20,858 nucleotides of DNA from positions 1 through 20,858 of the IMG/VR virus record IMGVR_UViG_3300036865_000024, one strand, 5' to 3'. The number at the start of each line of letters is the position of its first letter. Positions within the stretch are counted from its first letter, which is position 1. The position numbers were made by a program, and so were the translations under genes. Shown in pieces: positions 1 to 20,858 of the stretch. The notes below the pieces were generated by a model that did not search any database, was not told where the DNA came from, and saw nothing but the letters and a program-made list of their open reading frames with translations. The stretch comes from a virus.

Positions 1-552
1 GACCAACTGGGGCACGACCATCCCCAGTGCCACTGCAATTCTCCACGCTCCGGATGGATCGTCGTCTGTACCCACCCGCAAGCTGAGCGATGGGCCGATG
101 CCAACCTCCGACGCAGCGGCTTTCGCACCTACCTGCCGCTCTACGCCGCCAAGCGCCGCGATCCGGTGCTCCATACGCTCACCCGCGTCGTCCAGCGCCC
201 GTTGTTCAGCGGTTATGTGTTCTGCTGGCATGACAGCCGCGACTCCTGGCGACCCGTTTACGAAACCCCGGGCGTTCGTGGTGTCATCAAGAACGGTAAC
301 CAGATACAGTGGGTCCGCGCCGGGGCTGTGGAGGCCGTCAGAGCCGCTGAAGCCGCTCGCCGCTGTCCGACAGCGGAAACCGCCGAATGGGCGCCAGGGG
401 TGCCGTGTAGCCTCGCGCTAGGGCCATTAGCGGGCACGTCAGCCGTCGTGGTCTCCGTCGGTGCCGATATGGCCCTCGTGGCAATGATGATGTTCGGCGA
501 ACTCAGGGAAGTCGCAGTGCAACTCGATTGTCTCAGGCCACGGGACGAGTGA
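1..552 (+). CDS. NusG-family transcription antiterminator (5' partial)
   Basis: The frame is open from base 1 to the stop at 550-552, so the start lies upstream of the window. About 183 codons are visible. An NGN domain is readable: GWIVV followed by THPQAERWA, then YLPLYAAKRR, then the hallmark PLFSGYVFCW and a GVRGVIKNGNQ segment. After a linker, the C-terminal part looks like a KOW domain (GPLAGTSAVVVSVGAD, then a hydrophobic strand and VAVQLDCLRP). NusG-family proteins bind RNA polymerase and promote or suppress pausing and termination; specialised paralogues (RfaH, LoaP) act on particular long operons. Its position just upstream of the packaging genes suggests it helps polymerase read the late operon, which is an inference. 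Family assignment is confident; the role is not proven. Confidence 0.85.
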   Translation, partial: DQLGHDHPQCHCNSPRSGWIVVCTHPQAERWADANLRRSGFRTYLPLYAAKRRDPVLHTLTRVVQRPLFSGYVFCWHDSRDSWRPVYETPGVRGVIKNGNQIQWVRAGAVEAVRAAEAARRCPTAETAEWAPGVPCSLALGPLAGTSAVVVSVGADMALVAMMMFGELREVAVQLDCLRPRDE

Positions 553-576: not shown

Positions 577-912
577 ATGCCTCGCGGCTCCTCGCCCGGT
601 GAGAGACGTGGCGGCCGCGTCAAGGGCGTGCCCAACAAGCTCAATGCGACCATCAAGGAAATGATCCTCGGCGCTCTCAACGATGTCGGCGGGCAGGAAT
701 ATCTCGCCGCTCGTGCGCTGGATCAGCCAGTCGCCTTTATGAGCCTGCTCGGCCGCGTGCTGCCGCTGCAGGTGACCGGCGAGGCCGGCGGACCGATACA
801 CTTCAGCTTTGAATGGGCACCCGCGCAGCCTGTGGATACGACAGCAGCTACACCGACCATCGATGCAGACGCCGCGCTCGAGGTCGAGTGGGATCAGGTC
901 GATGGCTGCTAA
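577..912 (+). CDS. Probable terminase small subunit
   Basis: This 111-residue protein starts 24 bases after the NusG-like gene and overlaps the large terminase start by 11 bases. It has a basic N-terminus (RRGGRVKGVPNKLNATIKEM), then an alpha-helical segment (LNDVGGQEYLAARA, AFMSLLGRVLPLQVTG) and an acidic, proline- and alanine-rich tail. The arrangement RGGR.KG.PNK ... LLGRVLP.Q.TG is a recurring one in short proteins directly upstream of large terminases in podophages of GC-rich hosts. Small terminases form oligomeric rings that recognise the packaging site and load DNA onto the large subunit. The assignment rests mainly on position and that motif pattern; no classical helix-turn-helix is obvious. 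Start ATG 577 follows AGGA at a plausible distance. Confidence 0.6.
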   Translation: MPRGSSPGERRGGRVKGVPNKLNATIKEMILGALNDVGGQEYLAARALDQPVAFMSLLGRVLPLQVTGEAGGPIHFSFEWAPAQPVDTTAATPTIDADAALEVEWDQVDGC

Positions 913-2221
913 GCAGAAAGTAACGCTGCCATTTGCACCTCGGCCATGGCAAGCGCCGCTGCTCGATGATCCGGCCAAGCGCATCGTCGCCGTCGTGCAT
1001 CGCCGCGCCGGCAAATCCACCGCCCTGCTCTGGCGCGGATTGAAAGTCGCCATCACCAGCAAGAAGTCGTTGCCGCGCGTCGTGCATATACTTCCGTATG
1101 GCGTCATGTGGACGAGGACTGGCCTGTGGGACCAGGCGGTGCGCGCCGCCGATGCGATCCCTGGTTGCCAGGTCCGCCGCTCAGAGATGGCGATCCGGCT
1201 GCCAAACGGCGGCACGTGGCAGGCGGGTGGTGCGGACAATCCCGACAGCTGGCGTGGCGGCTACGCTGATGAGTGCATTATCGATGAATTTGACGATACG
1301 CCGCAGTCGATGGTCCCACTGGTGATTGAGCCAATGCTTGCCGATCGTGACGGCACGCTGGTGAGGTCTGGCACACCGAAGGGGCGCGGGCTGTTGCAAG
1401 CGGCGTATGATCGCGCGCGCATCTCGCCGGGGTATTCGGCGTATCTGCTGGATTATACCAAGACGGCCGCATTGCCTGACGCGGCGATTGAACGACTGCG
1501 TCAGGAAATGAGCGAGGAGGAGTTTGCGCAGGAGTTGGAGTGTTCGTTCAACGCGCCAAACTCGGGGAGCTATTACGGTAAACTCCTCGATCAAGCCGAG
1601 CATGATGGTCGTATCGTCCAGGTGCCGCATGATCCAGCGCTCAAAGTCTGGACCGCGTGGGATTTGGGCATCGACGACAGCACGGCGATCTGGTGCTGCC
1701 AGATATCGCGCGGCGGTGAGTGGCGGCTGATCGACTACATCGAGGACAGTGGCGCGGGACTGGACCATTACGTGCGCCTACTCCAGCAGCGCCCCTACGT
1801 CTACGAGCGCCATCTGCTGCCGCACGATGCCCAGGTGCGCGAGTTGGGCTCCGGCCGCTCCCGCACCGAGACGCTGCACAGCCTCGGCGTCCGCCCGACC
1901 CGTGTAGTGCGCCAGCACAGTGTTGCCGACGGCATCAACGCGGTGCGGATGATCCTGCCGCGCTGCTGGTTCGATGCCGAGCGGTGTGCGGCTGGCATCA
2001 AGGCGCTGCGGCACTACCGGCGGGAGTGGAATGAGGCGGCACAGACCTGGCGGGCAACGCCGGTGCACGACTTCGCCAGCCATGGGGCCGATGCGGCGCG
2101 CTATTTGGCGCTTGGTGTGCGCGATGTGGAGGAAGCGGTGGTTGACATCGTCACTGGGCAGTTTCCGACGCGCACGGTGATGGAGGAACGCGGCCTGTCA
2201 TCGTCGTGGATGAGCGTGTGA
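902..2221 (+). CDS. Terminase large subunit, copy 1
   Basis: 439 residues from ATG 902, chosen because it couples to the preceding gene and gives an N-terminus (MAAKQKVTLPFAPRPWQ) that aligns with the second copy at 7356. The ATPase domain has a Walker A-like loop HRRAGKST (residues 33-40) and Walker B CIIDEFDD with D128/E129. The RNase H-like nuclease domain has WDLGIDD (D254), HLLPHD (D309) and SHGADAARY (D397). The motor pumps DNA into the procapsid through the portal and cuts it. All expected catalytic residues are present, so the gene looks functional. Its final 31 residues differ completely from copy 2. The oddity is context: downstream lie a small basic gene and a broken methyltransferase rather than the portal. 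Confidence 0.93.
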   Translation: MAAKQKVTLPFAPRPWQAPLLDDPAKRIVAVVHRRAGKSTALLWRGLKVAITSKKSLPRVVHILPYGVMWTRTGLWDQAVRAADAIPGCQVRRSEMAIRLPNGGTWQAGGADNPDSWRGGYADECIIDEFDDTPQSMVPLVIEPMLADRDGTLVRSGTPKGRGLLQAAYDRARISPGYSAYLLDYTKTAALPDAAIERLRQEMSEEEFAQELECSFNAPNSGSYYGKLLDQAEHDGRIVQVPHDPALKVWTAWDLGIDDSTAIWCCQISRGGEWRLIDYIEDSGAGLDHYVRLLQQRPYVYERHLLPHDAQVRELGSGRSRTETLHSLGVRPTRVVRQHSVADGINAVRMILPRCWFDAERCAAGIKALRHYRREWNEAAQTWRATPVHDFASHGADAARYLALGVRDVEEAVVDIVTGQFPTRTVMEERGLSSSWMSV

Positions 2222-2362: not shown

Positions 2363-2866
2363 ATGACGATCCAGCTGCTCACTGGCGACGCACGCGACGT
2401 GCTGCCGACGCTGCCCAGCAACAGCGTGCATTGCTGCGTATGCTCGCCTCCCTACTATGCGCTCAGGAGCTATTTGGATGTATCGCATCCAGACAAGCAT
2501 CGTGAGTTGGGATCGGAGCAATCGCCGGACGAATACCTGGCCAACATGGTCGAGGTGTTTCGCGAAATCCGCCGCGTGCTGCGGCCGGATGGCACATGCT
2601 GGGTGAATATGGGTTCAAGTTTTGCAGCGAAACGTATAGAATCAGACCAACAGATTATCCGCAGGGACTTACCAAATGCCTTCCGATCCAAGATCGCACA
2701 GGCCATGTCCGCAGTGTGGTCAGGCTATGCATCGCCAGAGCAAGCAGTGCAAAGCCTGTTACGTAGCGATGATCGAAAGGCCGGAGAACTACCTAACGCG
2801 AGCCTGCGGCTGCTGCGCGGCCTGCGGCGCGCCGTGGGTGCGACAAACCGAGGGCGCCGTCCGTGA
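2363..2866 (+). pseudogene. DNA methyltransferase, 5' fragment (frame broken)
   Basis: Residues 1-88 read like the N-terminal half of a beta-type adenine/cytosine-N4 methyltransferase: MTIQLLTGDARDVLPTLP, catalytic motif IV CSPPYYALRSY (SPPY at residues 28-31), then EQSPDEYLANMVEVFREIRRVLRPDGTCWVNMGSSFA. After about base 2634 the similarity stops and the frame runs on as unrelated low-complexity sequence to 2866. In the family, MGSSFA would be followed by about 100 or more residues ending in a WYLR..IIW.KPNP-type segment; that is absent. The rest of the enzyme resumes in another frame in the overlapping 2676-3287 frame. It is called a pseudogene because the central catalytic core is missing. 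A split but active enzyme seems unlikely. Confidence 0.7.
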
Positions 2867-3287
2867 TCGCACGTTTGATGGTAGTGGCGGCATTGACGAG
2901 CGGAAGGCCAACGGTCGAGGCGGTAGCGCTGGCTTCATTGTGACCACCACCATCGGCTGGCGCGCCTCATGTTCATGCACAGTTCAGCGGACCCCAAGCT
3001 GCGGATCGGAACGGGGCGAGCTGATGGAGGGCGCGACCCGATCCGCCTCGGTCGCCCCTCCAACCGTTCCTTGCACGGTTCTAGACCCATTCCTCGGCTC
3101 CGGCACCACAGCGCTTGTGGCCGATCGCCTACAGCGCCACTGCATCGGCATCGACCTGTCGCTGACCTACGGCGAGATGGCGCAGCGCCGCATCGAGCGA
3201 GATATCCCGCTGTTCCCACCGTGGGCGCTACCCGAGGATCCAGAGGACGAGCGCATGCGTGATCTCTTTGCGGAGGCTGCGGAATGA
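2676..3287 (+). CDS. Zinc-ribbon fragment fused to DNA methyltransferase 3' part
   Basis: 203 residues. Residues 137-160 carry the SAM-binding motif I of amino-methyltransferases (VLDPFLGSGTTALVADRLQR, then CIGIDLS), and residues 46-58 (CCAACGAPWVRQT) match a cysteine-bearing segment usual in the middle of such enzymes. Residues 1-44 are foreign to the family: they hold CPQC (11, 14) and CKAC (25, 28) followed by ERPENYLTRAC, a layout recalled from the N-terminus of small phage HNH-type proteins. So this looks like a junction between a truncated zinc-ribbon gene and the methyltransferase 3' half. It lacks motif IV, so it should not methylate DNA alone. Its stop overlaps the next start (ATGA). 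Whether it is translated from ATG 2676 is uncertain. Confidence 0.6.
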   Translation: MPSDPRSHRPCPQCGQAMHRQSKQCKACYVAMIERPENYLTRACGCCAACGAPWVRQTEGAVRDRTFDGSGGIDERKANGRGGSAGFIVTTTIGWRASCSCTVQRTPSCGSERGELMEGATRSASVAPPTVPCTVLDPFLGSGTTALVADRLQRHCIGIDLSLTYGEMAQRRIERDIPLFPPWALPEDPEDERMRDLFAEAAE

Positions 3288-3469
3288 GCATCGGCTTCCT
3301 GTTCTGGCTGATCATGGTGCTGTGGATTCTGTTCTGGGCGTTCGGCAACTTCACGCCGCAGGGGCAGCCATACTGGAACCGCGGCGGCTGGCTGGTTGGC
3401 TTCGTGCTGTTCTTCCTGCTTGGTTGGGCTGTGTTTGTCTTTGCAATCCAGGGGCCTGGCGTCCGTTGA
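3284..3469 (+). CDS. Small membrane protein, two TM segments
   Basis: 61 residues starting at an ATG that overlaps the preceding stop (ATGA). Two hydrophobic stretches are visible: residues 3-21 (IGFLFWLIMVLWILFWAF) and about 38-56 (GWLVGFVLFFLLGWAVFVF), joined by a short polar loop with NFTPQGQPYWNRG. It is rich in Trp and Phe and ends in GPGVR. The length and two-helix hairpin are compatible with a class II holin, but the lysis enzyme lies 1.4 kb downstream with its own small membrane partner, so this could equally be a membrane micro-protein of unknown role. Coupled to the next gene through a TTGA overlap. Confidence 0.6.
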   Translation: MSIGFLFWLIMVLWILFWAFGNFTPQGQPYWNRGGWLVGFVLFFLLGWAVFVFAIQGPGVR

Positions 3470-3633
3470 ACCTGATCCTGCTGATCGTGATCCTGCTGAT
3501 CCTGTTCGGCGGCTTTGGTGGGTTCTACGGCTACCGCTCGGGGTATTATGGCCCGCAGGGCTTCGGGATCATCGGCGTGGTGCTCGTCATCGTGCTGCTG
3601 GTGCTGCTGTTCGGCGGCGGCCGTATCTACTGA
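3466..3633 (+). CDS. Small hydrophobic protein (DUF3309-like)
   Basis: 55 residues. The likely start is TTG 3466, which overlaps the preceding TGA (TTGA) and has an AGGGG about 11 bases upstream; no ATG or GTG fits. It has two hydrophobic blocks, NLILLIVILLILFGG at the N-terminus and FGIIGVVLVIVLLVLLFGG at the C-terminus, around a Gly/Tyr-rich loop (FYGYRSGYYGPQG). This resembles the short DUF3309-type family (LLLI.LLLLLLG ... GYGPSGG ... LLLILLILLLLGRI), which is common in alphaproteobacteria and has no known function. The start is an inference; the membrane character is plain. Confidence 0.5.
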   Translation: MNLILLIVILLILFGGFGGFYGYRSGYYGPQGFGIIGVVLVIVLLVLLFGGGRIY

Positions 3634-4306: not shown

Positions 4307-4912
4307 ATGGCAGGCTATCTCGCCTACATCATCCCGGTCGAAGGCTCGCCGGGCACGCCGACCCATCCGATTGTCACGCCGCCGCCCTACCCGGACCAAG
4401 GGTTGCCGGGACCACAGCCCCATCCTGAGCACCCGATCTACATCCCACCGAACTGCATCGGACCAGGCGTGCCATCGCACCCGATCTATCTCCCGCCTCC
4501 TGCACCGGCTCATCCGATCGTCATCCCGCCGGGCGCAATCGCTCCGGGTGTGCCGACCCATCCAATCGTTCTGCCGCCTCCGGCGAGCCCCTCGCATCCG
4601 ATCGTCATCCCGCCTGGTTCGCTTGGTCCTGGGACTCCGACGCATCCGATCGTGCTACCGCCGCTCGGCATTTGGGGCGGCCCGCCGCTGTATCCTGACC
4701 AGGGACTGCCAGGACCACAGCCGCGTCCGGAGCATCCGATTGCGCTACCGCCTGGTGGGCAGCCGATCGAGCCGCCAACGACGTTGCCGCCGCCGGCCGG
4801 CCACGAGGACGAGATCGTGGTCATGGTCTACCGCCCTGGGCAGGGCTGGAGCGGAGCATCCTACGACGTGGCGCCTGACCAAGGTCTGCCGCAGCCGACA
4901 CCGCACGGGTGA
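4307..4912 (+). CDS. Proline-rich repeat protein, 201 aa
   Basis: AAGGAG at 4296-4301 sits five bases before ATG 4307. After MAGYLAYIIPVEG the protein is built from repeats of HPI.(I/L)PP spaced by APGVPTHPIVLPPP-like units, and the longer unit PDQGLPGPQP.PEHPI occurs twice (about residues 29-44 and 126-141), with a third PDQGLP near the C-terminus. The end carries a distinct non-repeat module, DEIVVMVYRPGQGWSGASYD. Such composition favours extended polyproline helices and lacks catalytic motifs. Similar proteins (LAYIIPV... YPDQGLPGG) are recalled near lysis genes of GC-rich phages, with no known role. It may be a structural or envelope-associated protein. The stop overlaps the next start (TGATG). 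Confidence 0.7.
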   Translation: MAGYLAYIIPVEGSPGTPTHPIVTPPPYPDQGLPGPQPHPEHPIYIPPNCIGPGVPSHPIYLPPPAPAHPIVIPPGAIAPGVPTHPIVLPPPASPSHPIVIPPGSLGPGTPTHPIVLPPLGIWGGPPLYPDQGLPGPQPRPEHPIALPPGGQPIEPPTTLPPPAGHEDEIVVMVYRPGQGWSGASYDVAPDQGLPQPTPHG

Positions 4913-5304
4913 TGCCGTTCGTCGCCGCGCATCCGGAGCGCTACGTAGGCCAGGTGGTCGGTGAAGGCCGCCACAAGGGCCAATGCGTAGCCTATGTGCG
5001 CGCAGCGGCGCGGTTGCCGCAGACCAGCCTATGGATCGAGGGTGTCCCGGTGTGGGACTGCGATGATCTCGCACTGGGCACCGCGGTGGCCACCTTCGAT
5101 GCCAACGGCTGCTACGGCAACAACACGGACGGCTCGTCGCACGCCGCTATCTTCATCGAGCACGATCCCACGACGGGCGGCTTCTGGGCGTATGATCAGT
5201 GGATCGGGCATCCGGTGTCGCGGCGGCTGATCCGCGCCAAGGGTGGCGCCGGGCAGGCGGTGGATGACGCTGATGCCTACGCTGTGATTGAGGTGGCGGC
5301 ATGA
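4912..5304 (+). CDS. BPSL0067-type peptidoglycan hydrolase (probable endolysin)
   Basis: 130 residues from ATG 4912; a GTG at 4909 directly before it is an alternative. The order of motifs is that of the BPSL0067 family, thought to be NlpC/P60-like cysteine amidases: GQCVAYVR with candidate nucleophile C25, TAVATFDANGCYGN, SSHAAIFI with candidate H77, and FWAYDQWIG, then RRLIRAKGG and a C-terminal AYAVIEV strand. There is no signal peptide, so it would need a holin or another exit route, and the next gene encodes a one-segment membrane protein. In this setting it is the best candidate for the lysis enzyme. Family recognition is fairly firm; cell-wall cleavage is inferred. Confidence 0.75.
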   Translation: MPFVAAHPERYVGQVVGEGRHKGQCVAYVRAAARLPQTSLWIEGVPVWDCDDLALGTAVATFDANGCYGNNTDGSSHAAIFIEHDPTTGGFWAYDQWIGHPVSRRLIRAKGGAGQAVDDADAYAVIEVAA

Positions 5305-5510
5305 CCGGGGCCGCCAACGGCACCGGGCTGCTGGCCTCGGTCAGTGAGAAACTCATTCGTGCACTCCCCCCGGCCTTCTTACTCCTCGTGCTGCTGAACA
5401 TCGTATTCCTCGGCGTCGCAGCCTGGGTGTTCCAGCACAACACTACAGTCCGCAACGCGATGATCCAACGCATCATCGAAAGCTGTCTGACACAAAGGGA
5501 CAAACCATGA
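5301..5510 (+). CDS. Small membrane protein, holin-like
   Basis: 69 residues; its ATG overlaps the preceding hydrolase stop (ATGA). A single strong membrane segment spans about residues 22-45 (ALPPAFLLLVLLNIVFLGVA, then AWVF), preceded by a mildly charged N-terminus and followed by a polar tail (QHNTTVRNAMIQRIIESCLT). Size, one transmembrane helix and coupling to the probable endolysin support a holin or spanin-like role. No lipobox is present, so an o-spanin is excluded. Its stop overlaps the PEP-CTERM gene start. Confidence 0.6.
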   Translation: MTGAANGTGLLASVSEKLIRALPPAFLLLVLLNIVFLGVAAWVFQHNTTVRNAMIQRIIESCLTQRDKP

Positions 5511-6139
5511 AGCTCGCCCTACTCGCCGCGACTGTCCTGGGCCTCGCCACGCCAGCCTCCGCTACCGTCGTCCTGAACTTCGGCCAGGTGTCCAATCTGA
5601 ACACCATCACCGCGACGCCGAATGGCACCGATACCGCGACCACGATCAGCGGCACGAATGTCGCGATCACCATCACCCAGGACATCGGCGGCTTCCTTGG
5701 CCCGGCGATACTCAACCTCAACGCCACCAGCACCGATGCTGCGGTCGCCATCGGCACCTCGGTGCTGCAGCACTATGCGGGTTCCTGGCAGATCACTTCG
5801 GGGCTCGGGGGAACCGGCACCAACTACCTCAGCGGCACCTTCACCGACGCGGTGTTCGGCACCGGGCCCAGCCTGACGCTGTCCGTGGGCGCCCCGCCCG
5901 ACATCATCACCACCAGCTCCGACCAGATCCCGGCGATCGATCTCGGGCTGCCCGAAGCGATCTCGCTCAGCTTCACCAACGTGCTGCCGCCGGTGGGCAT
6001 CGTCGGGTCGACGTTGCAAGGCTTCACGTCGAGCATCGCCGGCAACTTCAGCGCCACACCGGTTCCTGAGCCGGCATCCCTCGCGCTGCTGGGGTTGGGC
6101 GTGCTGGGGCTTGGCATGGTGCGGCCGCGGCGTGGCTGA
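5507..6139 (+). CDS. Secreted PEP-CTERM sorting-domain protein
   Basis: 210 residues. The N-terminus is a classical signal peptide, MKLALLAATVLGLATPASA, with likely cleavage after residue 19. The mature part is Thr/Ser/Gly-rich, beta-type and almost free of charged residues. The C-terminus is a textbook PEP-CTERM signal: PVPEP at residues 185-189, a hydrophobic helix (ASLALLGLGVLGLGMV) and the basic end RPRRG. In Gram-negative bacteria such tails are processed by exosortase and the proteins go to the envelope or extracellular matrix. No exosortase is in the window, so host machinery would be required. It is translationally coupled (ATGA) to the holin-like gene, which puts it inside the phage operon. 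Its biological role is unknown. Confidence 0.85.
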   Translation: MKLALLAATVLGLATPASATVVLNFGQVSNLNTITATPNGTDTATTISGTNVAITITQDIGGFLGPAILNLNATSTDAAVAIGTSVLQHYAGSWQITSGLGGTGTNYLSGTFTDAVFGTGPSLTLSVGAPPDIITTSSDQIPAIDLGLPEAISLSFTNVLPPVGIVGSTLQGFTSSIAGNFSATPVPEPASLALLGLGVLGLGMVRPRRG

Positions 6140-7175: not shown

Positions 7176-7193
7176 TTATGGGCCGATAAAACC

Positions 7194-7213
7194 CGGGGGC
7201 TGAAAAGCCCCCG
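7194..7213 (+). terminator. Perfect 8-bp hairpin with GAAA tetraloop
   Basis: CGGGGGCT (7194-7201) and AGCCCCCG (7206-7213) pair perfectly around a GAAA loop, a very stable GNRA tetraloop. It lies 18 bases after the stop of the 76-residue gene. No T-run follows on the plus strand; on the minus strand the hairpin is followed by GGTTTT. It could be a terminator, an RNA-stability element or part of a leader structure. Confidence 0.5.
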
Positions 7214-7219
7214 AGTAAC

Positions 7220-7244
7220 GAACCGAAACCCACCCGTTCGGTTC
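7220..7244 (+). promoter_or_regulatory. Second leader inverted repeat upstream of terminase copy 2
   Basis: GAACCGAA (7220-7227) and TTCGGTTC (7237-7244) form a perfect 8-bp stem with a 9-base loop, six bases after the GAAA hairpin. The motif ACCGAAACCC, part of its left side, recurs near 7300-7309, again followed by TTCGG. The 180-base stretch 7176-7355 has no gene. It may be a structured leader, an operator for the upstream HTH protein or a packaging site; the sequence does not decide. Confidence 0.4.
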
Positions 7245-7355
7245 AAATCGCCGTATCTCGCGTGCAATATCAAGTTGTTGGCAGAACGTGAAGGACTACA
7301 CCGAAACCCTCCCGCCCAATTCGGGCCAGTTGCCACAATTCGTCCTAGAGCACCA

Positions 7356-8678
7356 ATGACCCAACGCCAGAAAATCGTCGTGCCGTTCGCGCCGCGCGAC
7401 TGGCAGCGCCCGCTCATCGATGACAACGCCAAGCGCATCGTCGCCGTTGTCCACCGCCGCGCCGGCAAGTCAACAGCGCTCCTCTGGCGCGGCCTGATGC
7501 GCGCTGCCACCTGCAAGCGCCCGCTGCCGCGCGTCGTGCATATCCTGCCCTACGCCGTGCAGTGGAGCCGCACCGGCCTGTGGGACCAGGCGGTGCGCGC
7601 CTCTGAGGCCATTCCAGGCTGCGAGGTGCGCAAGGCGCAGATGTCCATTCGCCTGCCGAACGGCGGCACGTGGCAGGCCGGCGGCGCCGACAACCAGGAC
7701 AGTTGGCGCGGCGGCTATGGCGACGAGGTGATCCTGGACGAGTTCGACGACTGTCCGCCGACCATGGTCCCGCTGGTCATCGAGCCCATGCTGGCGGATC
7801 GCGATGGCGTTCTGGTGCGGAGCGGCACCCCAAAGGGGCGGGGGTTGTTACAGGCGGCCTACGACCGTGCCAGGACTACACCGGGATACAGCACGTATCT
7901 GCTGGACTACCGCAAGACTGGCGCGCTCAGCGACGAGGCGATCGCCCGGCTGCGGCAGGAAATGAGCGACGAGGAGTTCGCCCAGGAGCTCGAGTGCTCG
8001 TTCAACGCGCCGAACAGCGGCAGCTACTACGGCAGGCTGATGCAGGAGGCCGAGGACGAGGGACGGATCGGCGTGGTGCCACACGAGCCGACGTTGCGCG
8101 TCTGGACCGCCTGGGATCTCGGCATCGATGATGCGACGGCAATATGGTTCCTACAGACCACACGCGGCGGCCAGTGGCGGCTCATCGATTACATCGAGAG
8201 TTCGGGTGAAGGGCTCGATTACTACGTGCATCTGCTGCGGGAGAGGCCGTATGCCTACGAGAAGCACCTGCTGCCGCACGATGCGGAGGTGCGCGAGTTG
8301 GGCAGCGGGCGATCCCGCACCGAGACGCTGCACGGCCTCGGCGTGAAGCCGACGCGAGTTGTCCGTCAACACAGCGTCGCCGACGGCATCAACGCGGTGC
8401 GAATGGTGCTGCCGCGCTGCTGGTTCGACGCGGCCAAGTGCGCGCTTGGCATCCGGGCGCTGCGGAACTATCGCCGGGAGTGGCATGAGCAGGCGCAGAC
8501 CTGGCGCAACACGCCGGTGCATGATCACGCAAGCCATGGCGCCGATGCGGCCCGGTATCTGGCGCTGGGTGTGCGTGACGGCGAGCAGCGGCCGCTGGCC
8601 GAGCCGCGTTGGGAAAGCCAGTACGAGACGGTTGTGGGGCCCGGCCAGATGGGCAGCACGACCTGGATGGCAGCGTGA
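7356..8678 (+). CDS. Terminase large subunit, copy 2
   Basis: 440 residues from ATG 7356, whose N-terminus MTQRQKIVVPFAPRDWQ aligns with copy 1. Hand alignment without gaps over the first 408 residues gives 327 identities. Walker A HRRAGKST (33-40), Walker B VILDEFDD (D128/E129), and nuclease acidic residues D254 (WDLGIDD), D309 (LLPHD) and D397 (SHGADAARY) are all intact. The last 32 residues are unrelated to copy 1. It packages DNA into the procapsid; being followed by a 68-residue gene and the portal, it sits in the usual P22-like position. No small terminase precedes it; instead there is a 180-base structured non-coding leader. Both copies appear functional. Confidence 0.93.
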   Translation: MTQRQKIVVPFAPRDWQRPLIDDNAKRIVAVVHRRAGKSTALLWRGLMRAATCKRPLPRVVHILPYAVQWSRTGLWDQAVRASEAIPGCEVRKAQMSIRLPNGGTWQAGGADNQDSWRGGYGDEVILDEFDDCPPTMVPLVIEPMLADRDGVLVRSGTPKGRGLLQAAYDRARTTPGYSTYLLDYRKTGALSDEAIARLRQEMSDEEFAQELECSFNAPNSGSYYGRLMQEAEDEGRIGVVPHEPTLRVWTAWDLGIDDATAIWFLQTTRGGQWRLIDYIESSGEGLDYYVHLLRERPYAYEKHLLPHDAEVRELGSGRSRTETLHGLGVKPTRVVRQHSVADGINAVRMVLPRCWFDAAKCALGIRALRNYRREWHEQAQTWRNTPVHDHASHGADAARYLALGVRDGEQRPLAEPRWESQYETVVGPGQMGSTTWMAA

Positions 8679-8881
8679 AAAGCCTGAAGGCGGCGGCGGC
8701 AAAGCGGGTGGCGGCGGTCGACTATCAGGCTGGTGGGCGGGCTGATGTCCATGATGCCATGATCATGCACACCTATCAGATCAGCGCCGAGTTGCGGCGG
8801 GTGCCGGAGCGGGAGCGGCTCGAGACGGCGCTGCGCATCTGCCGGCGCATCGTTACAAACACACGTGAGAGTCTGGGCTGA
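8675..8881 (+). CDS. Hypothetical protein between terminase and portal, 68 aa
   Basis: The best start is GTG 8675, overlapping the terminase stop (GTGA). It reads MKSLKAAAAKRVAAVDYQAG, GRADVHDAMIMHTYQISAEL and then RRVPERERLETALRICRRIV with the tail TNTRESLG. The product is helical and basic at both ends. Its stop overlaps the portal start (TGATG). No family recognised; the position suggests a head-assembly accessory protein. Confidence 0.6.
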   Translation: MKSLKAAAAKRVAAVDYQAGGRADVHDAMIMHTYQISAELRRVPERERLETALRICRRIVTNTRESLG

Positions 8882-11163
8882 TGCCTCGCCCGCAACGTGG
8901 TGATGCCGAAATTATGCGCGAAGCACGCAAGCTGTTCGAGCGCTGCGTCACGTGGGAATCGCTGGCCCGCTCCAATGCCCGCATCGATCGCCGCTTTGCC
9001 AACGGCGACAGCTACAACAATTACCAGTGGGATCAGACGGTGCGGACCGCACGTGGCGACCGGCCCTGCCTCACCCACAACAAGGTGCGCCAGCACAACC
9101 TGCAGATCATCAACGACGCCCGCCAGCACAAGCAGAGCGTCAAGATTACCCCGGTCGGCGGGCAGGCCAGCTATGATGCCGCCCAGGTGTTCGAGGGGAT
9201 CATCCGAAAGATTGAGTATCAGTCCAAGGCCGTCGATGCCTATTCGACGGCGACTTACCATCAGGTCGAAAGCGGCATCGGCTACGTCACGGTCGACTGC
9301 GACTATGTCGATGAGGGCTCATTCGAGCAGGAAATCTACATCCGCCGGGTGGCCGACCCCGAGACCATCTACCTGGATCCCGACTGCAAGCTCTACGACA
9401 AGTCGGACGCGCGCTATGCCTTCCAGTTCGAGGACATCCCGCGCGATCAGTGGGAGGCCGAGCACGGCGAGCACGAGGCGCCCCCGCCGGCGGCGCTGGA
9501 TATGCCCCGCAGCAACGACTGGGTGACCAAGGACCACGTGCGCGTGGCCACCTTCTGGCGCCGCAATGAGGACGCCGACAAGCTGCATCTGCTGCACGAC
9601 GGGCGCGTGCTGCGCCAGAGCGATCTCGACGACGCGCAGATGGACGTCGTGCGCCCGCTGATCCGTCAGACGCGTGAGACCTCGGAGGCGCGCGTCGAGT
9701 GGTTCCGGATCGAGGGAGACAAGATCACCGACCGCGGTGAATGGGCCGGGAAGTATATCCCGATCGTGCCTTTCATCGGCGAGGAGATGGTGATTGACGG
9801 CATCCTGGACCGCAAAGGCCATACGCGGAGTCAGATCGATGCTCAGCGTATCTACAACTACTGGGCCTCGGCGGCGGTGGAGCAGGTCGCGCTGCAGACC
9901 AAGGTGCCTTACATCGGCACGCTGAAGGCGTTCGAGAACCTCGATCAGTATTGGAACAGCGCCAACATCAAGAATTTTGCTTATCTGCCGTATAACGGCG
10001 TGGACGATGACGGCAATCCGGTGCCGCCACCACAGCGGGTCGAGCCGCCCAACATGGCACAGGCCTACGTGCAGGGCATGATGATCGCGCGGCAGGATCT
10101 GCTGGATGTCACCGGGCAGTATCAGGCCGAGTTGGGGATGCCCTCCAATGAGCGGAGCGGCGTCGCCATTCAGCAGCGCCAGCGGCAGGGCGACAATGCC
10201 ACGTATCACTACATCGACAATCAGAGCAAAGCGATCCGCCAGGTGGGGCGCATCCTGCTCGATCTGATCCCGAAGATTTACGACACGCCGCGGGTGGTGA
10301 AGATCATGGCCCAGGACGGCTCCGACCAAGAGGTCATCCTGACGCAGAATGCGCCGGCCGCGCATCAGCGTGTATTGCTGACGCCGCAGGGGCCACAGCC
10401 GATCGGCCCGGATCAGGCGGACGCGGCGAAGGCCGACGACAAGCTGCCGGATCCAAGGATCATCTTCAATCCAACGGTGGGGCGGTATGATGTCGAGGCG
10501 GATGTCGGGCCAACATTCGGCACCCAGCGCCAGGAAGCTGCTAACGCCTTTACTCAAATCCTGGCTCAGAACCCCGCAGCCTTCCAGGTTGTCGGCGATT
10601 TCTGGGCGAAATACCAAGATTTTCCCGGCGCCGACGAACTGGCCAAGCGACTTGAGCGCGGGCTACCCCCGCAATACAAGCCGGGGCCTGACCCGCAAGT
10701 AGTTCAGATGAACCAGGCTATGCAGAAGCAGCAGCAGATGGGCCAGCAGATCGTGCGTCAGGCGGATGCCGAGATCGCGCGGCTCAAGGCCGACAATGTG
10801 CGGCTGAAGGAGCAGGCGCTGGAGAAGCATGGTGAGTTGGTGATTGACGAGTACCGCGCGGAGACTGACCGGCTGAAGGCGGTCGGCACGATTGATCCGA
10901 ACATGCTGCAGGTGATCGTGCGGCGCATGGTGAGCGACATGCTGCAGGAGAATTTGCCGGGGTGGATCCAGCACCACGGGACGATGGAGCAGGCGCTGCA
11001 GGACAACATCCAGTCGGCGCAGCCACAGGTGCAGAATGGCGGTAACGGCAACGCTGGCGGCAACGGTGGCGGCAACGGAGCGGCAGCAGCGCCGCAGATG
11101 GCGCCAGCGGGGCCACCTGCGCCAGGGGCCGGAGCGTGGCAGGCACCACCGGCGATGCAATGA
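8881..11163 (+). CDS. P22-type portal protein
   Basis: 760 residues, close to the P22 portal length (about 725). The N-terminal half has the family look: FERCVTWESLARSNARIDRR, FANGDSYNNYQW, RPCLTHNKVRQHNLQIINDA, then EIYIRRVADPETIYLDPDCK and later a TGQYQAELGMPSNERSGVAI segment. The C-terminal part (from about residue 600) is a long Gln-rich coiled coil, QAMQKQQQMGQQIVRQADAE and on, expected for a barrel or crown domain, ending in a Gly/Asn-rich tail (NGGNGNAGGNGGGNG) and a Pro/Ala-rich end. Twelve subunits form the ring through which terminase pumps DNA. ATG 8881 is coupled to the previous gene and its own stop overlaps the next start. Confidence 0.93.
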   Translation: MPRPQRGDAEIMREARKLFERCVTWESLARSNARIDRRFANGDSYNNYQWDQTVRTARGDRPCLTHNKVRQHNLQIINDARQHKQSVKITPVGGQASYDAAQVFEGIIRKIEYQSKAVDAYSTATYHQVESGIGYVTVDCDYVDEGSFEQEIYIRRVADPETIYLDPDCKLYDKSDARYAFQFEDIPRDQWEAEHGEHEAPPPAALDMPRSNDWVTKDHVRVATFWRRNEDADKLHLLHDGRVLRQSDLDDAQMDVVRPLIRQTRETSEARVEWFRIEGDKITDRGEWAGKYIPIVPFIGEEMVIDGILDRKGHTRSQIDAQRIYNYWASAAVEQVALQTKVPYIGTLKAFENLDQYWNSANIKNFAYLPYNGVDDDGNPVPPPQRVEPPNMAQAYVQGMMIARQDLLDVTGQYQAELGMPSNERSGVAIQQRQRQGDNATYHYIDNQSKAIRQVGRILLDLIPKIYDTPRVVKIMAQDGSDQEVILTQNAPAAHQRVLLTPQGPQPIGPDQADAAKADDKLPDPRIIFNPTVGRYDVEADVGPTFGTQRQEAANAFTQILAQNPAAFQVVGDFWAKYQDFPGADELAKRLERGLPPQYKPGPDPQVVQMNQAMQKQQQMGQQIVRQADAEIARLKADNVRLKEQALEKHGELVIDEYRAETDRLKAVGTIDPNMLQVIVRRMVSDMLQENLPGWIQHHGTMEQALQDNIQSAQPQVQNGGNGNAGGNGGGNGAAAAPQMAPAGPPAPGAGAWQAPPAMQ

Positions 11164-13188: not shown

Positions 13189-13250
13189 CAGAGGCCAAAT
13201 TGTGAAGCTGAGAGAAATGCCGGTGGCACTCCGCACAGGAGTTGCGACCG

Positions 13251-14441
13251 ATGGCCGTTGCCTCAAATACGCTACTCAACATCAACATGATAACGGCCAA
13301 AGCGCTCGTTATCCTCCACCAGAAACTGAACTTTGTCGGGTCCATCAATAGGCAATACGAAGACAGCTTCGGCCAGGCCGGCGCCAAGATCGGCTCCAGC
13401 ATCCGAATCCGCATTCCGGTGCAATACACCGTGGCCACCACGCCCGCGCTGGCGATCCAGAACAGCGTGGAAACCAGCACCACATTGACGCTGGCCAACC
13501 AGTACCACGTCGACTTCAGCTTCTCGAGCACTGAGCTGACGCTGAATATCGATGATTTTGCGGCGCGCTATCTGGAACCCGCATGCGCGGTGCTGGCGGC
13601 CAACGTTGAGGCCCAGGCGATGCTACAGGTCGTGCCCGCCGTCTGGAACATGGTGGACGGCCACGGCGCGGCACAATCGTTCCGCAACGTGCTAACCGGG
13701 CGCAAACTCCTGCTCGATAACCTGACGCCACAAGACCTACAGTGGCAGCTCAGGCTCAACACGCAGGACAACGTCGATATGGTGGACACGCTGAAGGGCC
13801 TGTTCCAGCAATCGACGCAGATCGCCCGGCAATACGTCGACGGCGTGATGGGCCTCGCGGGGGGGTTCGAGTGGGCCGAGAACACCCACCTGCAGACCTA
13901 CACGCGCGGTGCTCAAGCGGGCTATCTGGTGGGTGCCGCCAGCCAGACCGGATCAAGCCTTGCCGTCACAACTGGCGCCGGCATCGGGAACCCGGGCGAT
14001 GTGTTCACCATCGCCGGTGTCTATCGCGTGCATCCGGAAAGCAAGGTGGTCACCAACCAGCTGCAGCAGTTCGTGCTGACAGCGTCGGCAGCCTCTGGCG
14101 CGGGTACGTGGTCGATCGCTCCGGCGATGACGGTGACAGGGCCTTACCAGAACATCAACGCATCACCCGGCGCTGGCGTGGCAATCACCTTCCTCATGGC
14201 AGCATCGACGGCCAGCGGACAGAGCCTTTGCTACCATCCGGACTTTGCGACCTTCGGCACAGCCGACCTGGTGATGCCAGGCGGGGTCGACATGGCAGCG
14301 AGGGCGCAGAAGGATGGGCTATCTATCAGGGTGGTTAGACAGTATGACATCAACAACGATGTCCTGCCGTGCCGGTTGGACATTCTCTGGGGAGTAGCGG
14401 CAATCAGGCCGCAGTTAGCGGCTCGGTTGATTGCCAATTAA
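13251..14441 (+). CDS. Major capsid (coat) protein, P22 type
   Basis: 396 residues. ATG 13251 is chosen because AGGAG (13237-13241) sits nine bases upstream; a TTG at 13242 is less likely. The protein has the features of the P22 coat family (about 430 residues): an N-terminal helix (ITAKALVILHQKLNFVGSIN), GSSIRIRIPVQYTVA, ARYLEPACAVLAANVEAQAM, a mid-protein insertion-like beta region (GNPGDVFTIAGVYRVHPESK), and the C-terminal YDINNDVLPCRLDILWGVAA with RPQLAARL. HK97-fold coat proteins build the icosahedral shell with scaffold help. The gene stands alone between two hairpins rather than overlapping its neighbours, consistent with separate control of its high expression. Confidence 0.9.
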   Translation: MAVASNTLLNINMITAKALVILHQKLNFVGSINRQYEDSFGQAGAKIGSSIRIRIPVQYTVATTPALAIQNSVETSTTLTLANQYHVDFSFSSTELTLNIDDFAARYLEPACAVLAANVEAQAMLQVVPAVWNMVDGHGAAQSFRNVLTGRKLLLDNLTPQDLQWQLRLNTQDNVDMVDTLKGLFQQSTQIARQYVDGVMGLAGGFEWAENTHLQTYTRGAQAGYLVGAASQTGSSLAVTTGAGIGNPGDVFTIAGVYRVHPESKVVTNQLQQFVLTASAASGAGTWSIAPAMTVTGPYQNINASPGAGVAITFLMAASTASGQSLCYHPDFATFGTADLVMPGGVDMAARAQKDGLSIRVVRQYDINNDVLPCRLDILWGVAAIRPQLAARLIAN

Positions 14442-15691: not shown

Positions 15692-17842
15692 TTGCCTAAG
15701 CTCGCCCTCACCGGCGGAGCGTACCAGGCACGCAGCGTCATCGCCTCGGCGCAGCGCAGCCTCAATCTCTACAACGAGCCACTGCCGCAGCAGCAGGGCG
15801 AGCCGTCACAGTTCGCGTCCTATCCCACTCCCGGCCTGACGCTCGTCGGCACCATGCCGCAAGGCCCGATCCGCGGCATCCGCCAGGCTACCAACGACGC
15901 GATCTACGTGGTCGCCGGCTCCGGTGTCTATGTCATCACCGGAACCGCGCCACTGGCCTATACGCTGCTCGGCAGCATCACCGCTGGCCGGACCACCCCG
16001 GTTTCGATGCAGGACAACAGCGAGACGCTGGTGATTGTCGACGGCACCGCAAACGGCTGGCAGGTCGATCTCGCGAGCAATGGCTTTTCGGCGATCAGCG
16101 ATCCAACCGGCATGTTCTCCGGCGCCGACCGCGTGGACGTCCTCGATACTTACCTGTTGTTCAACAAGCCAGGCACGCCGCAATTCTATTCGTCCGAGAG
16201 CCTCGCCGTAGCATTTGACAGCTTGTTCTTTGCCGACAAGAGCAGTTACCCCGATCTCCTGGTGTCGCTCGCCGTGGCGAAGCGGGAAATCTGGCTGCTT
16301 GGCGAACGCACTACGGAGATCTGGTATAACGCCGGGACGAGTGACTTTCCGTTCGGCCAGATCCCATCGACGTTTGTCGATCACGGTTGCATCGCGAAAT
16401 ATACCGTCGCAGTTTACGACAATTCGGTGTTCTGGCTGACCCTAGACCGTCAGGGCGGCCCGCTGCTCATGCAGGGCGCCGGCTATCAGACCAAGCGTGT
16501 CTCCACCTTCGCCCTCGAGCAGACATGGGCGGATTACGCCGTGCTGTCGGATGCGATCGGCTTCATTTACCTGCTGGGCGGTCACGCGGTCTACGTGCTG
16601 ACCTTTCCGACTGCGGACCACACCTGGTGCTACGACATCAGCACCGGGCTCTGGCATGAATGGCTATGGGTCGACAACGTCGGCGCCGAGCATCGCTCGC
16701 GGTGCAACTGCGCCTATCCGGCGACAACCGGCGCGGTCTATGCCGGCGACTGGCAGAACGGCAACCTCTATCAGATCGATCACAACAACCAGACGGACAA
16801 CGGCCAGCCGATCAAGCGGCAACGGTCATGGCCGCATGTTCTGAATGACGGCAAGCGGGTCTTTTACCGCGCGTTCATCGCCGACTTCGAGACCGGGATG
16901 GGCGGCCCTGCGCCATCGCAGCCGCAGACGGTGGTCGAGTGCCTGTTCAACGGTCCGGACGGCACGCCGGTCGAGCAGTATTCGCCATCCGCAACTGAGA
17001 TCAACGCGACGTGGTCCAGGATTGATGGTGCTGGCGCGGTGCTGAGCGACGGCGCGGCCATCGCCGCCGACGGCAACACCAGGTATGCCAACAACGTCTT
17101 CCCGCCGGCGGCGGACTACAGCATCGCCTTTCGCGTGCTGCCGAACCCGCAGGCGGACGACGGCAGTTCGGCGATGGTCGGCGCTAGGTCAAACGCCCTG
17201 CCGACTGCGATGAGCGGCTACTGGGCTGGCATCCAGATCTACAACGGCAACTGGTACGCGCAATTGCATGGCGCGTTGATGCCGCTCGGGTTGCCGGCGC
17301 CTGGTGGCTGGTTCGATTGTCTGCTGATCGTGCAGGGGCAATCCCTCGCGCTCACCGTGCAGCGCTCGCAGGACGGCTTGTATCTCGGCAATGACGCGCA
17401 GTGGCAGAGCACCGCGGTCGCGGCGCTGTCCATGACTGACAGCGTCTACACCGCCGCAGGCCGCATCATGTTCGGGCTCAATGCTCTCCCGACCGGCGTG
17501 ATGGGCACCGAAGACGCAACCGGCACCTGGGTGCTCGAGGACAACAGCGGCTTCTCCTGGGAGTGGGACGAAGTGCCGGCCGATAGCCTTGGCCTCGACA
17601 ACATCGTGGTCAACACGGTTCCAACGCCCTGGCAGCTGTTACTCGACTGGTCGGACGACCGCGGGCACACGTTCGGCAACCCGGTGCCTCAGGGCGTCGG
17701 CGGCCAGGGCGAGTATCTCACGCAGGCGCAGTGGCAGCGGTTGGGATACGCCCGGGACCGGATATTCAGGCTGACCTGGACAGCTCCTTTGCGCACCGCC
17801 TTGCAAGGCGCCTCGATCGAGGCGCAGCCAGGATTGAGTTGA
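15692..17842 (+). CDS. P22 gp10-like DNA stabilisation protein with inserted domain
   Basis: 716 residues. The start is TTG 15692: GGAGG (15680-15684) lies seven bases upstream and no other start fits. Residues 1-400 follow the gp10 family: [20 protein letters not shown], repeated beta-propeller-like strands ([28 protein letters not shown]), [10 protein letters not shown] and [13 protein letters not shown]. The family C-terminal module is split: [11 protein letters not shown] near residue 400 and [20 protein letters not shown] near 646, then [17 protein letters not shown]. Between them about 240 residues form a jelly-roll or LamG-like domain ([52 protein letters not shown]). Without the insert the protein would match P22 gp10 in length (472). 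gp10 plugs the portal and connects the tail needle. Confidence 0.85.
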
Positions 17843-20273: not shown

Positions 20274-20354
20274 ATGGCAGAATACCAACTCGTTGCATCC
20301 CTCCCTGGCATGCAGATGCAGACCATGCAGCGGGTGGTTAGGGACGAGGTGTAA
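20274..20354 (+). CDS. Short peptide after fibre gene, 26 aa
   Basis: GAGGA (20265-20269) sits four bases before ATG 20274. The product, MAEYQLVASLPGMQMQTMQR VVRDEV in two runs, ends inside the hairpin at 20341-20378. The beginning recalls longer small proteins that follow fibre genes in related phages (MAEYxLTAS...), so it may be a truncated relative. It could also be a chance frame. Confidence 0.35.
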   Translation: MAEYQLVASLPGMQMQTMQRVVRDEV

Positions 20355-20378
20355 CCCCGGCAAGGGTTCCCTCGTCCC
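20341..20378 (+). terminator. Compound hairpin after fibre genes, terminator-like
   Basis: GGGACGAGG (20341-20349) pairs perfectly with CCTCGTCCC (20370-20378); inside, AACCC (20353-20357) pairs with GGGTT (20364-20368) around a six-base loop. Total 14 bp with a small asymmetric internal loop. No T-run follows. It sits at the end of the structural block, where a terminator would be expected. Confidence 0.55.
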
Positions 20379-20394
20379 GAGGAATAACCGATCC

Positions 20395-20858
20395 ATGTCA
20401 GTAATATCAACACCTTTTGTCGTTTTTGCCTTACCAAGAAGCCGCAGCTACTGGCTGAGCCACTTCCTGACCTATGGCGGCTGGCACTGCGACCATGACC
20501 AACTGCGCTATTGCCGTGGCCTGGACGACGTGCAGGCGTGGCTGTCGCAGCCGCTGACGGGGACCGTGGAGACCGGCGCCGCTCCGTTCTGGCGCCTGCT
20601 GCCGGAAGGGGTGAGGGTTGCGACGATCCGACGCCCGATTGCCGATGTCATCGCCTCGCTGCATCGGGGCGGTCTGCAATTCGATGTCGTCACCATGGCG
20701 AAGCGGCTTGCTCATCTCGACGCCAAGTTGCGGCAGGCCGCCCACCGTCTGCCGAATGTGCTGGAGACGAATTTTGCCGAACTCGGCACTCAGGAAGGCT
20801 GTGCACGGCTGTTCGAGCACTGCCTGCCACACCGCCATGATCCCGCCTGGTGGGCGCA
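20395..20858 (+). CDS. Sulfotransferase-like protein (3' partial)
   Basis: The frame opens at ATG 20395 (GAGGAA at 20379-20384) and runs off the window; 154 codons are visible. FALPRSRSYWLSHFL (PRSRS at residues 14-18) resembles the 5'-phosphosulfate-binding loop of sulfotransferases, and ATIRRPIADVIASL (R79/R80, S88) resembles the 3'-phosphate motif that follows in the family. The rest (YGGWHCDHDQLRYCRGLDDV, GTVETGAAPFWRLLPEGV, ARLFEHCLPHRHDPAWW) matches what I recall of short sulfotransferase-like proteins in phages of alphaproteobacteria. Sulfotransferases move sulfate from PAPS to sugars or peptides. A catalytic base cannot be assigned, and the substrate is unknown. Confidence 0.65.
   Translation, partial: MSVISTPFVVFALPRSRSYWLSHFLTYGGWHCDHDQLRYCRGLDDVQAWLSQPLTGTVETGAAPFWRLLPEGVRVATIRRPIADVIASLHRGGLQFDVVTMAKRLAHLDAKLRQAAHRLPNVLETNFAELGTQEGCARLFEHCLPHRHDPAWWA

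Follow-up and report, generated by a model that had tools for sequence, protein, structure and literature searches.

A recurrent phage-carried PEP-CTERM protein, probably a surface-conversion moron of host origin that relies on the host exosortase for sorting

Why would a phage carry a gene for a protein that ends in the sorting tail of an exosortase substrate? This question is raised by a 20,858-base IMG/VR record (the window), a phage fragment with structural and packaging genes that contains a PEP-CTERM gene of 210 aa (5507..6139, + strand). Its phage modules on the same strand comprise a NusG/RfaH-like antiterminator cut at its 5' end (1..552; PF02357, phrog_6386), two terminase large subunit (TerL) genes that are 80% identical (836..2221 and 7323..8678; phrog_2 and phrog_2472), a P22-like portal (8881..11163; PF16510, E 4.6e-166), and a major head protein (13242..14441; phrog_283, E 1.5e-63); a head-closure protein (phrog_578) lies at 15692-17842. 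The double TerL possibly reflects a duplication, tandem prophages, or a chimera. Its first copy is absent from contig L002, and L015 has the same TerS-TerL order as that copy. Positions 7186-7319 contain a GC hairpin together with a stretch that is 96% identical in L002; they lie right where the TerL modules begin to differ and may be a boundary set by recombination or by a packaging site. The DNA methyltransferase gene at 2363-3287 is broken across two frames, and the copy in L002 is whole (438 aa, 738-2054). A truncated ORF at 20293-20858 starts, judged by eye, like a sulfotransferase. An antiterminator of the NusG/RfaH kind also lies 5' of the terminase region in the PEP carriers L002, L008, L014, and L067.

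The protein has the layout of a PEP-CTERM substrate from end to end. Residues 1-19 (MKLALLAATVLGLATPASA, 5507..5563, +) form a predicted signal peptide, with a lysine, a hydrophobic core, and an AxA-like site before the following T. The Ser/Thr-rich, beta-rich body, predicted to be exported (residues 20-185, 5564..6061, +), has in the alignment a conserved core, YLSGTFTDA(V)FG. The tail, VPEP-ASLALLGLGVLGLGMV-RPRRG, consists of the VPEP motif (residues 186-189, 6062..6073, +), which is also seen in the alignment, a hydrophobic transmembrane segment (190-205, 6074..6121, +), and a basic C-terminus (206-210, 6122..6136, +). It scores 26.9 bits with PF07589 (cut-off 20.7) and 20.4 bits with TIGR02595 (cut-off 16). 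An AlphaFold2 model built from 31 homologues (pLDDT 76) has an all-beta body and a C-terminal helix at 190-203. The signal peptide, beta-rich body, and full tail that an earlier note had read from the letters are thus borne out. The body itself matches no Pfam or NCBIfam family, has no fold relatives at E<=0.001 in PDB or BFVD, and gave no meaningful matches in a PDB sequence search. Gram-negative exosortase substrates (PF07589, TIGR02595) share the Sec signal peptide, variable body, and PEP-TM-basic tail; in contrast to them, this protein is carried by a phage without an exosortase, and its body falls outside Pfam and NCBIfam. The flocculation protein PepA (NF033554; PMC9850573) is likewise a secreted PEP-CTERM protein. 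The window protein reaches 40.5 bits with its profile over residues 74-209, under the cut-off of 80, and we rejected homology of the body to PepA since the match disappears once the tail is removed.

The gene is embedded in a chain of overlapping genes. Its ATG (5507-5509) overlaps, as ATGA, the TGA of a 69-aa ORF (5301..5510, +) for a holin-like protein with a single transmembrane segment. That ORF in turn overlaps a BPSL0067-family gene (4909..5304, +; NF033857, 69.8 bits, cut-off 27) for a likely cell-wall hydrolase, the start of which is overlapped by a gene for a Pro-rich repeat protein (4307..4912, +) with a homologue in L002. None of the profile libraries recognizes the 69-aa protein as a holin; in L075/L076, however, a homologue of this small gene lies 5' of a PHROG endolysin and overlaps it, which supports a lysis reading. 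L002, which comes from another metagenome, has retained the BPSL0067 gene and the small membrane gene, and the latter again overlaps the PEP gene by 4 bases (89% nucleotide identity over the block, 97% identity between the PEP proteins), whereas the TerL and portal downstream differ from those of the window. This establishes the junction as real and shows that the block occurs with different packaging modules. The overlap is also kept in L044, where the PEP protein is 57% identical to that of the window; its conservation in both contigs argues against chance and against an assembly artefact. A tiny Gly-rich membrane protein (PF11752/DUF3309) is encoded close by, at 3259-3633, and small Gly-rich membrane ORFs, similar to DUF3309 by eye, lie near the PEP gene in L014, L044, L053, L056, L060, and L067.

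Homologues of the PEP-CTERM gene are widespread among viral contigs. A body profile built from five bodies without their tails matched 39 viral contigs, and a degenerate DNA pattern of the PEP tail matched 95 viral stretches, 80 of which were listed. Among the matches listed there are 78 further loci: every ORF ends within 21-34 residues of the motif, 68 of the 78 have a signal-peptide-like start, and 47 are matched by the window-body profile. Because the two sets of loci share several contigs, the total is about 80 contigs, which are not independent species. Three tail-scan matches (L184, L186, and L187) were left out as evidence, having no phage hallmark nearby. PF07589 is present in 29 of the 31 aligned body members, and an AxA-like site in all 105 phage PEP-CTERM proteins compared. 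The family is under purifying selection (dN/dS 0.08-0.32 in 20 pairs), and the number of cysteines is 0, 2, or 4 and never odd among the 71 members compared, as expected of an exported disulphide protein. One phage lineage (L058, L059, and L068) has kept the body and lost the tail, ending in SASAVPGR; a frameshift was rejected as the cause, since the other frames hold no PEP tail. No homologue was found among the cultured phages and plasmids searched, nor a prophage bearing the gene in sequenced genomes. Together with the junction reproduced in L002, the viral contigs exclude that homologues occur only in host genomes, the finding that the earlier note had named as fatal to a phage-borne gene. 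The converse idea of a phage-only family was also dropped: a first scan of 84,980 species was empty, but a profile search recovered chromosomal homologues in Acetobacteraceae.

The surroundings of the gene vary greatly. At least six TerL types (of the window, L002, L008, L063, L071, and HK97-like L050 kinds), five portal types (phrog_156, 1216, 12, 332, and 12082), and head proteins of phrog_283, 617, 1328, and 264 are found near it, with several TerL types mixed within one clade of PEP proteins. The bodies vary as well. When clustered without signal peptide and tail, the window body (body A) accounts for 71 rows, and the other clusters have 8, 7, 5, 3, and 2 rows, in addition to singletons. 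Some window-type phages carry other bodies in its place, namely body B in L014, L201, and L223 and body C in L196 and L204; L014 has its PEP gene between NusG and TerL, the same placement as in the window. A gene that sits at differing places among conserved modules and is swapped for another in sister phages looks like an accessory gene of the moron type. The slot is not universal, since among TerL-related loci that were not picked for PEP (31 viral and 46 genomic) a regular expression found a PEP-CTERM gene only in L014.

A hallmark gene (TerL, portal, or MCP) lies within 3.5 kb of the PEP gene in 39 loci, on the same strand in 34 and on the opposite strand in 5, and the same-strand majority makes late lytic instead of lysogenic expression possible. 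The PEP transcription unit runs opposite to the late genes in L060/L062, where it adjoins the head protein gene, in L063, and in L223, where it sits between portal and head protein. Promoter and terminator scans at the PEP loci gave nothing convincing. An integrase is encoded in 4 of 21 carrying records and is absent from the 20.9-kb window fragment.

These arrangements bear on the best-surviving alternative, that the protein serves in lysis or release: expressed late together with the holin-like and BPSL0067 genes, it would disturb the outer envelope or matrix as a spanin-like third step and let progeny exit. The translational overlap in the window, L002, and L044, the order PEP, holin-like, endolysin in L075/L076, and the strand shared mostly with the late genes all agree with such a role. 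However, in most carriers the location of the PEP gene is independent of lysis genes, several copies have the reverse orientation, and unrelated bodies occur with the same tail and setting. Moreover, the lipobox required of a u-spanin is absent from the window protein and from every member of body A, and its single match, in the body-C protein of L220, is by chance. We thus regard a lysis factor as unlikely. As for the lysis operon proposed in the earlier note, the overlap with the holin-like gene stands as a phage-borne feature, and membership of such an operon applies to the window, L002, L044, and L075/L076; elsewhere the PEP gene neighbours TerL, portal, or MCP, in some cases in reverse orientation.

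A second alternative makes the tail the active part: the protein would be a decoy that occupies the host exosortase, reducing the sorting of host PEP-CTERM proteins and leading to a looser matrix or loss of receptors. The retention of the tail across unrelated bodies fits this model, as do the loci with two PEP-CTERM genes (L055, L056, and L057) or three (L064). Yet the body is likewise under purifying selection and never has an odd number of cysteines, which indicates that the body matters, and we consider a pure decoy rather improbable.

No exosortase gene was found in any of the 38 carrying viral records, so the host enzyme would be needed, as had been supposed. The nearest TerL match in the 84,980 species searched (58%) belongs to an Acetobacteraceae MAG with two exosortases; 21 of the 24 genomes with TerL relatives that were tested have none. 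For the MAG, the nearest relative, the other finding named as fatal in the earlier note, a lack of exosortase in the hosts, does not apply. Exosortases above the family cut-off occur in 134 of 398 Acetobacteraceae versus 52 of 385 sampled Alphaproteobacteria. With a sensitive profile search, body A was found in 6 of the 398 Acetobacteraceae, one of them very weakly, and in none of the 385 Alphaproteobacteria; in this small sample, five of the six genomes have an exosortase. The body-A homologues examined have ordinary chromosomal surroundings and are multi-copy in two genomes. Bodies B and C are chromosomal too, in exosortase-positive Acetobacteraceae, and body B adjoins maf-infA-his-like genes (names read from the sequences) in two genomes. 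Two Acetobacteraceae genomes (G310 and G340; L127-L146) each have at least eight dispersed body paralogues with a variant VPAPAG tail, and G310 additionally has five body-C matches. In a tree, diversity is greater among the 50 phage rows than among the 17 host rows, and the host label requires three changes; on this tree the host label may have a single origin. Chromosomal homologues of three bodies, the exosortase-positive nearest-TerL MAG, and the lack of a phage exosortase point to host exosortase substrates that appear to have been captured by phages repeatedly. The carriers are probably phages of uncultured Acetobacteraceae.

Clear host homologues of three bodies would also be expected if the genes were neutral cargo, picked up by transduction-like capture and of no benefit to the phage. 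Purifying selection, the many phage backbones, the preserved signal peptide and tail, and the several unrelated bodies speak against this, and we think it very unlikely. The reading of the viral contigs as misclassified host segments, chimeric assemblies, or provirus flanks, for which one could cite that every contig is metagenomic and that the window holds two TerL genes, is extremely improbable and was rejected for the family as a whole, because numerous independent contigs have the PEP gene flanked by phage structural genes, the gene is within 3.5 kb of a hallmark gene in the 39 loci above, and the junction is reproduced in L002.

The explanation that we favor, and hold to be probable, is a phage-carried, host-derived exosortase substrate that acts as a surface-conversion moron and is sorted by the host exosortase. 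In published models of PEP-CTERM proteins, Sec export is followed by retention through the tail, exosortase processing, and transfer to the outside, where they help polysaccharide adhesion (PMC12188702); floc formation has been linked to such proteins (PMC9850573). By analogy, the phage protein would be produced in infection or lysogeny and exported by Sec, with its C-terminal helix anchoring it in the inner membrane, and the host exosortase would cut at the PEP motif, so that it ends up on the outer surface or in the polysaccharide matrix, where the beta body would alter the cell surface in favor of the phage. Receptor masking, superinfection exclusion, or a changed matrix or aggregation would be the most likely effect; known exclusion proteins target receptors (PMC11436027). 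Phages would acquire differing host bodies and retain the tail. By this analogy, the surface of the infected cell is probably remodelled via the host's own sorting enzyme. More tentatively, and at somewhat less than even chances, a class of phages may have a dedicated "exosortase-substrate slot" filled by interchangeable secreted proteins, captured repeatedly from hosts and with only the sorting tail in common, which would rewrite or block the EPS-linked surface and perhaps partly occupy the exosortase.

Small envelope proteins encoded by accessory phage genes have precedents among morons and superinfection-exclusion proteins. The Bor protein of lambda is one, and Bor, Cor, and Ltp use lipoprotein or simple secretion signals. 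Cor of phi80/N15 (PMC11436027) and Ltp of Streptococcus phages (PMC3952083) are small and accessory like the window protein, with which they would share an envelope location; unlike in all three, sorting here is predicted to be handed to the host exosortase. In viral contigs from Yellowstone hot springs, TIGR03118 proteins reported to be horizontally acquired have a putative exosortase-interaction C-terminus (PMC11003980). They belong to a different family, and the single sentence on them ties them neither to phage modules nor to a function. Beyond that mention, the literature searched, which included few subscription papers, yielded no description of phage exosortase substrates. Morons and PEP-CTERM proteins were each already known; what is new is their combination and its recurrence.

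Exosortase sorting is a poorly understood export route of Gram-negative bacteria, linked to flocculation, biofilm, and exopolysaccharide. If phages do depend on it, they would offer a genetic handle on this route and a new means by which the host surface is changed. A set of about 80 genes is now at hand, along with residues that are conserved and candidate hosts, and this makes the use of the host exosortase by phages directly testable.
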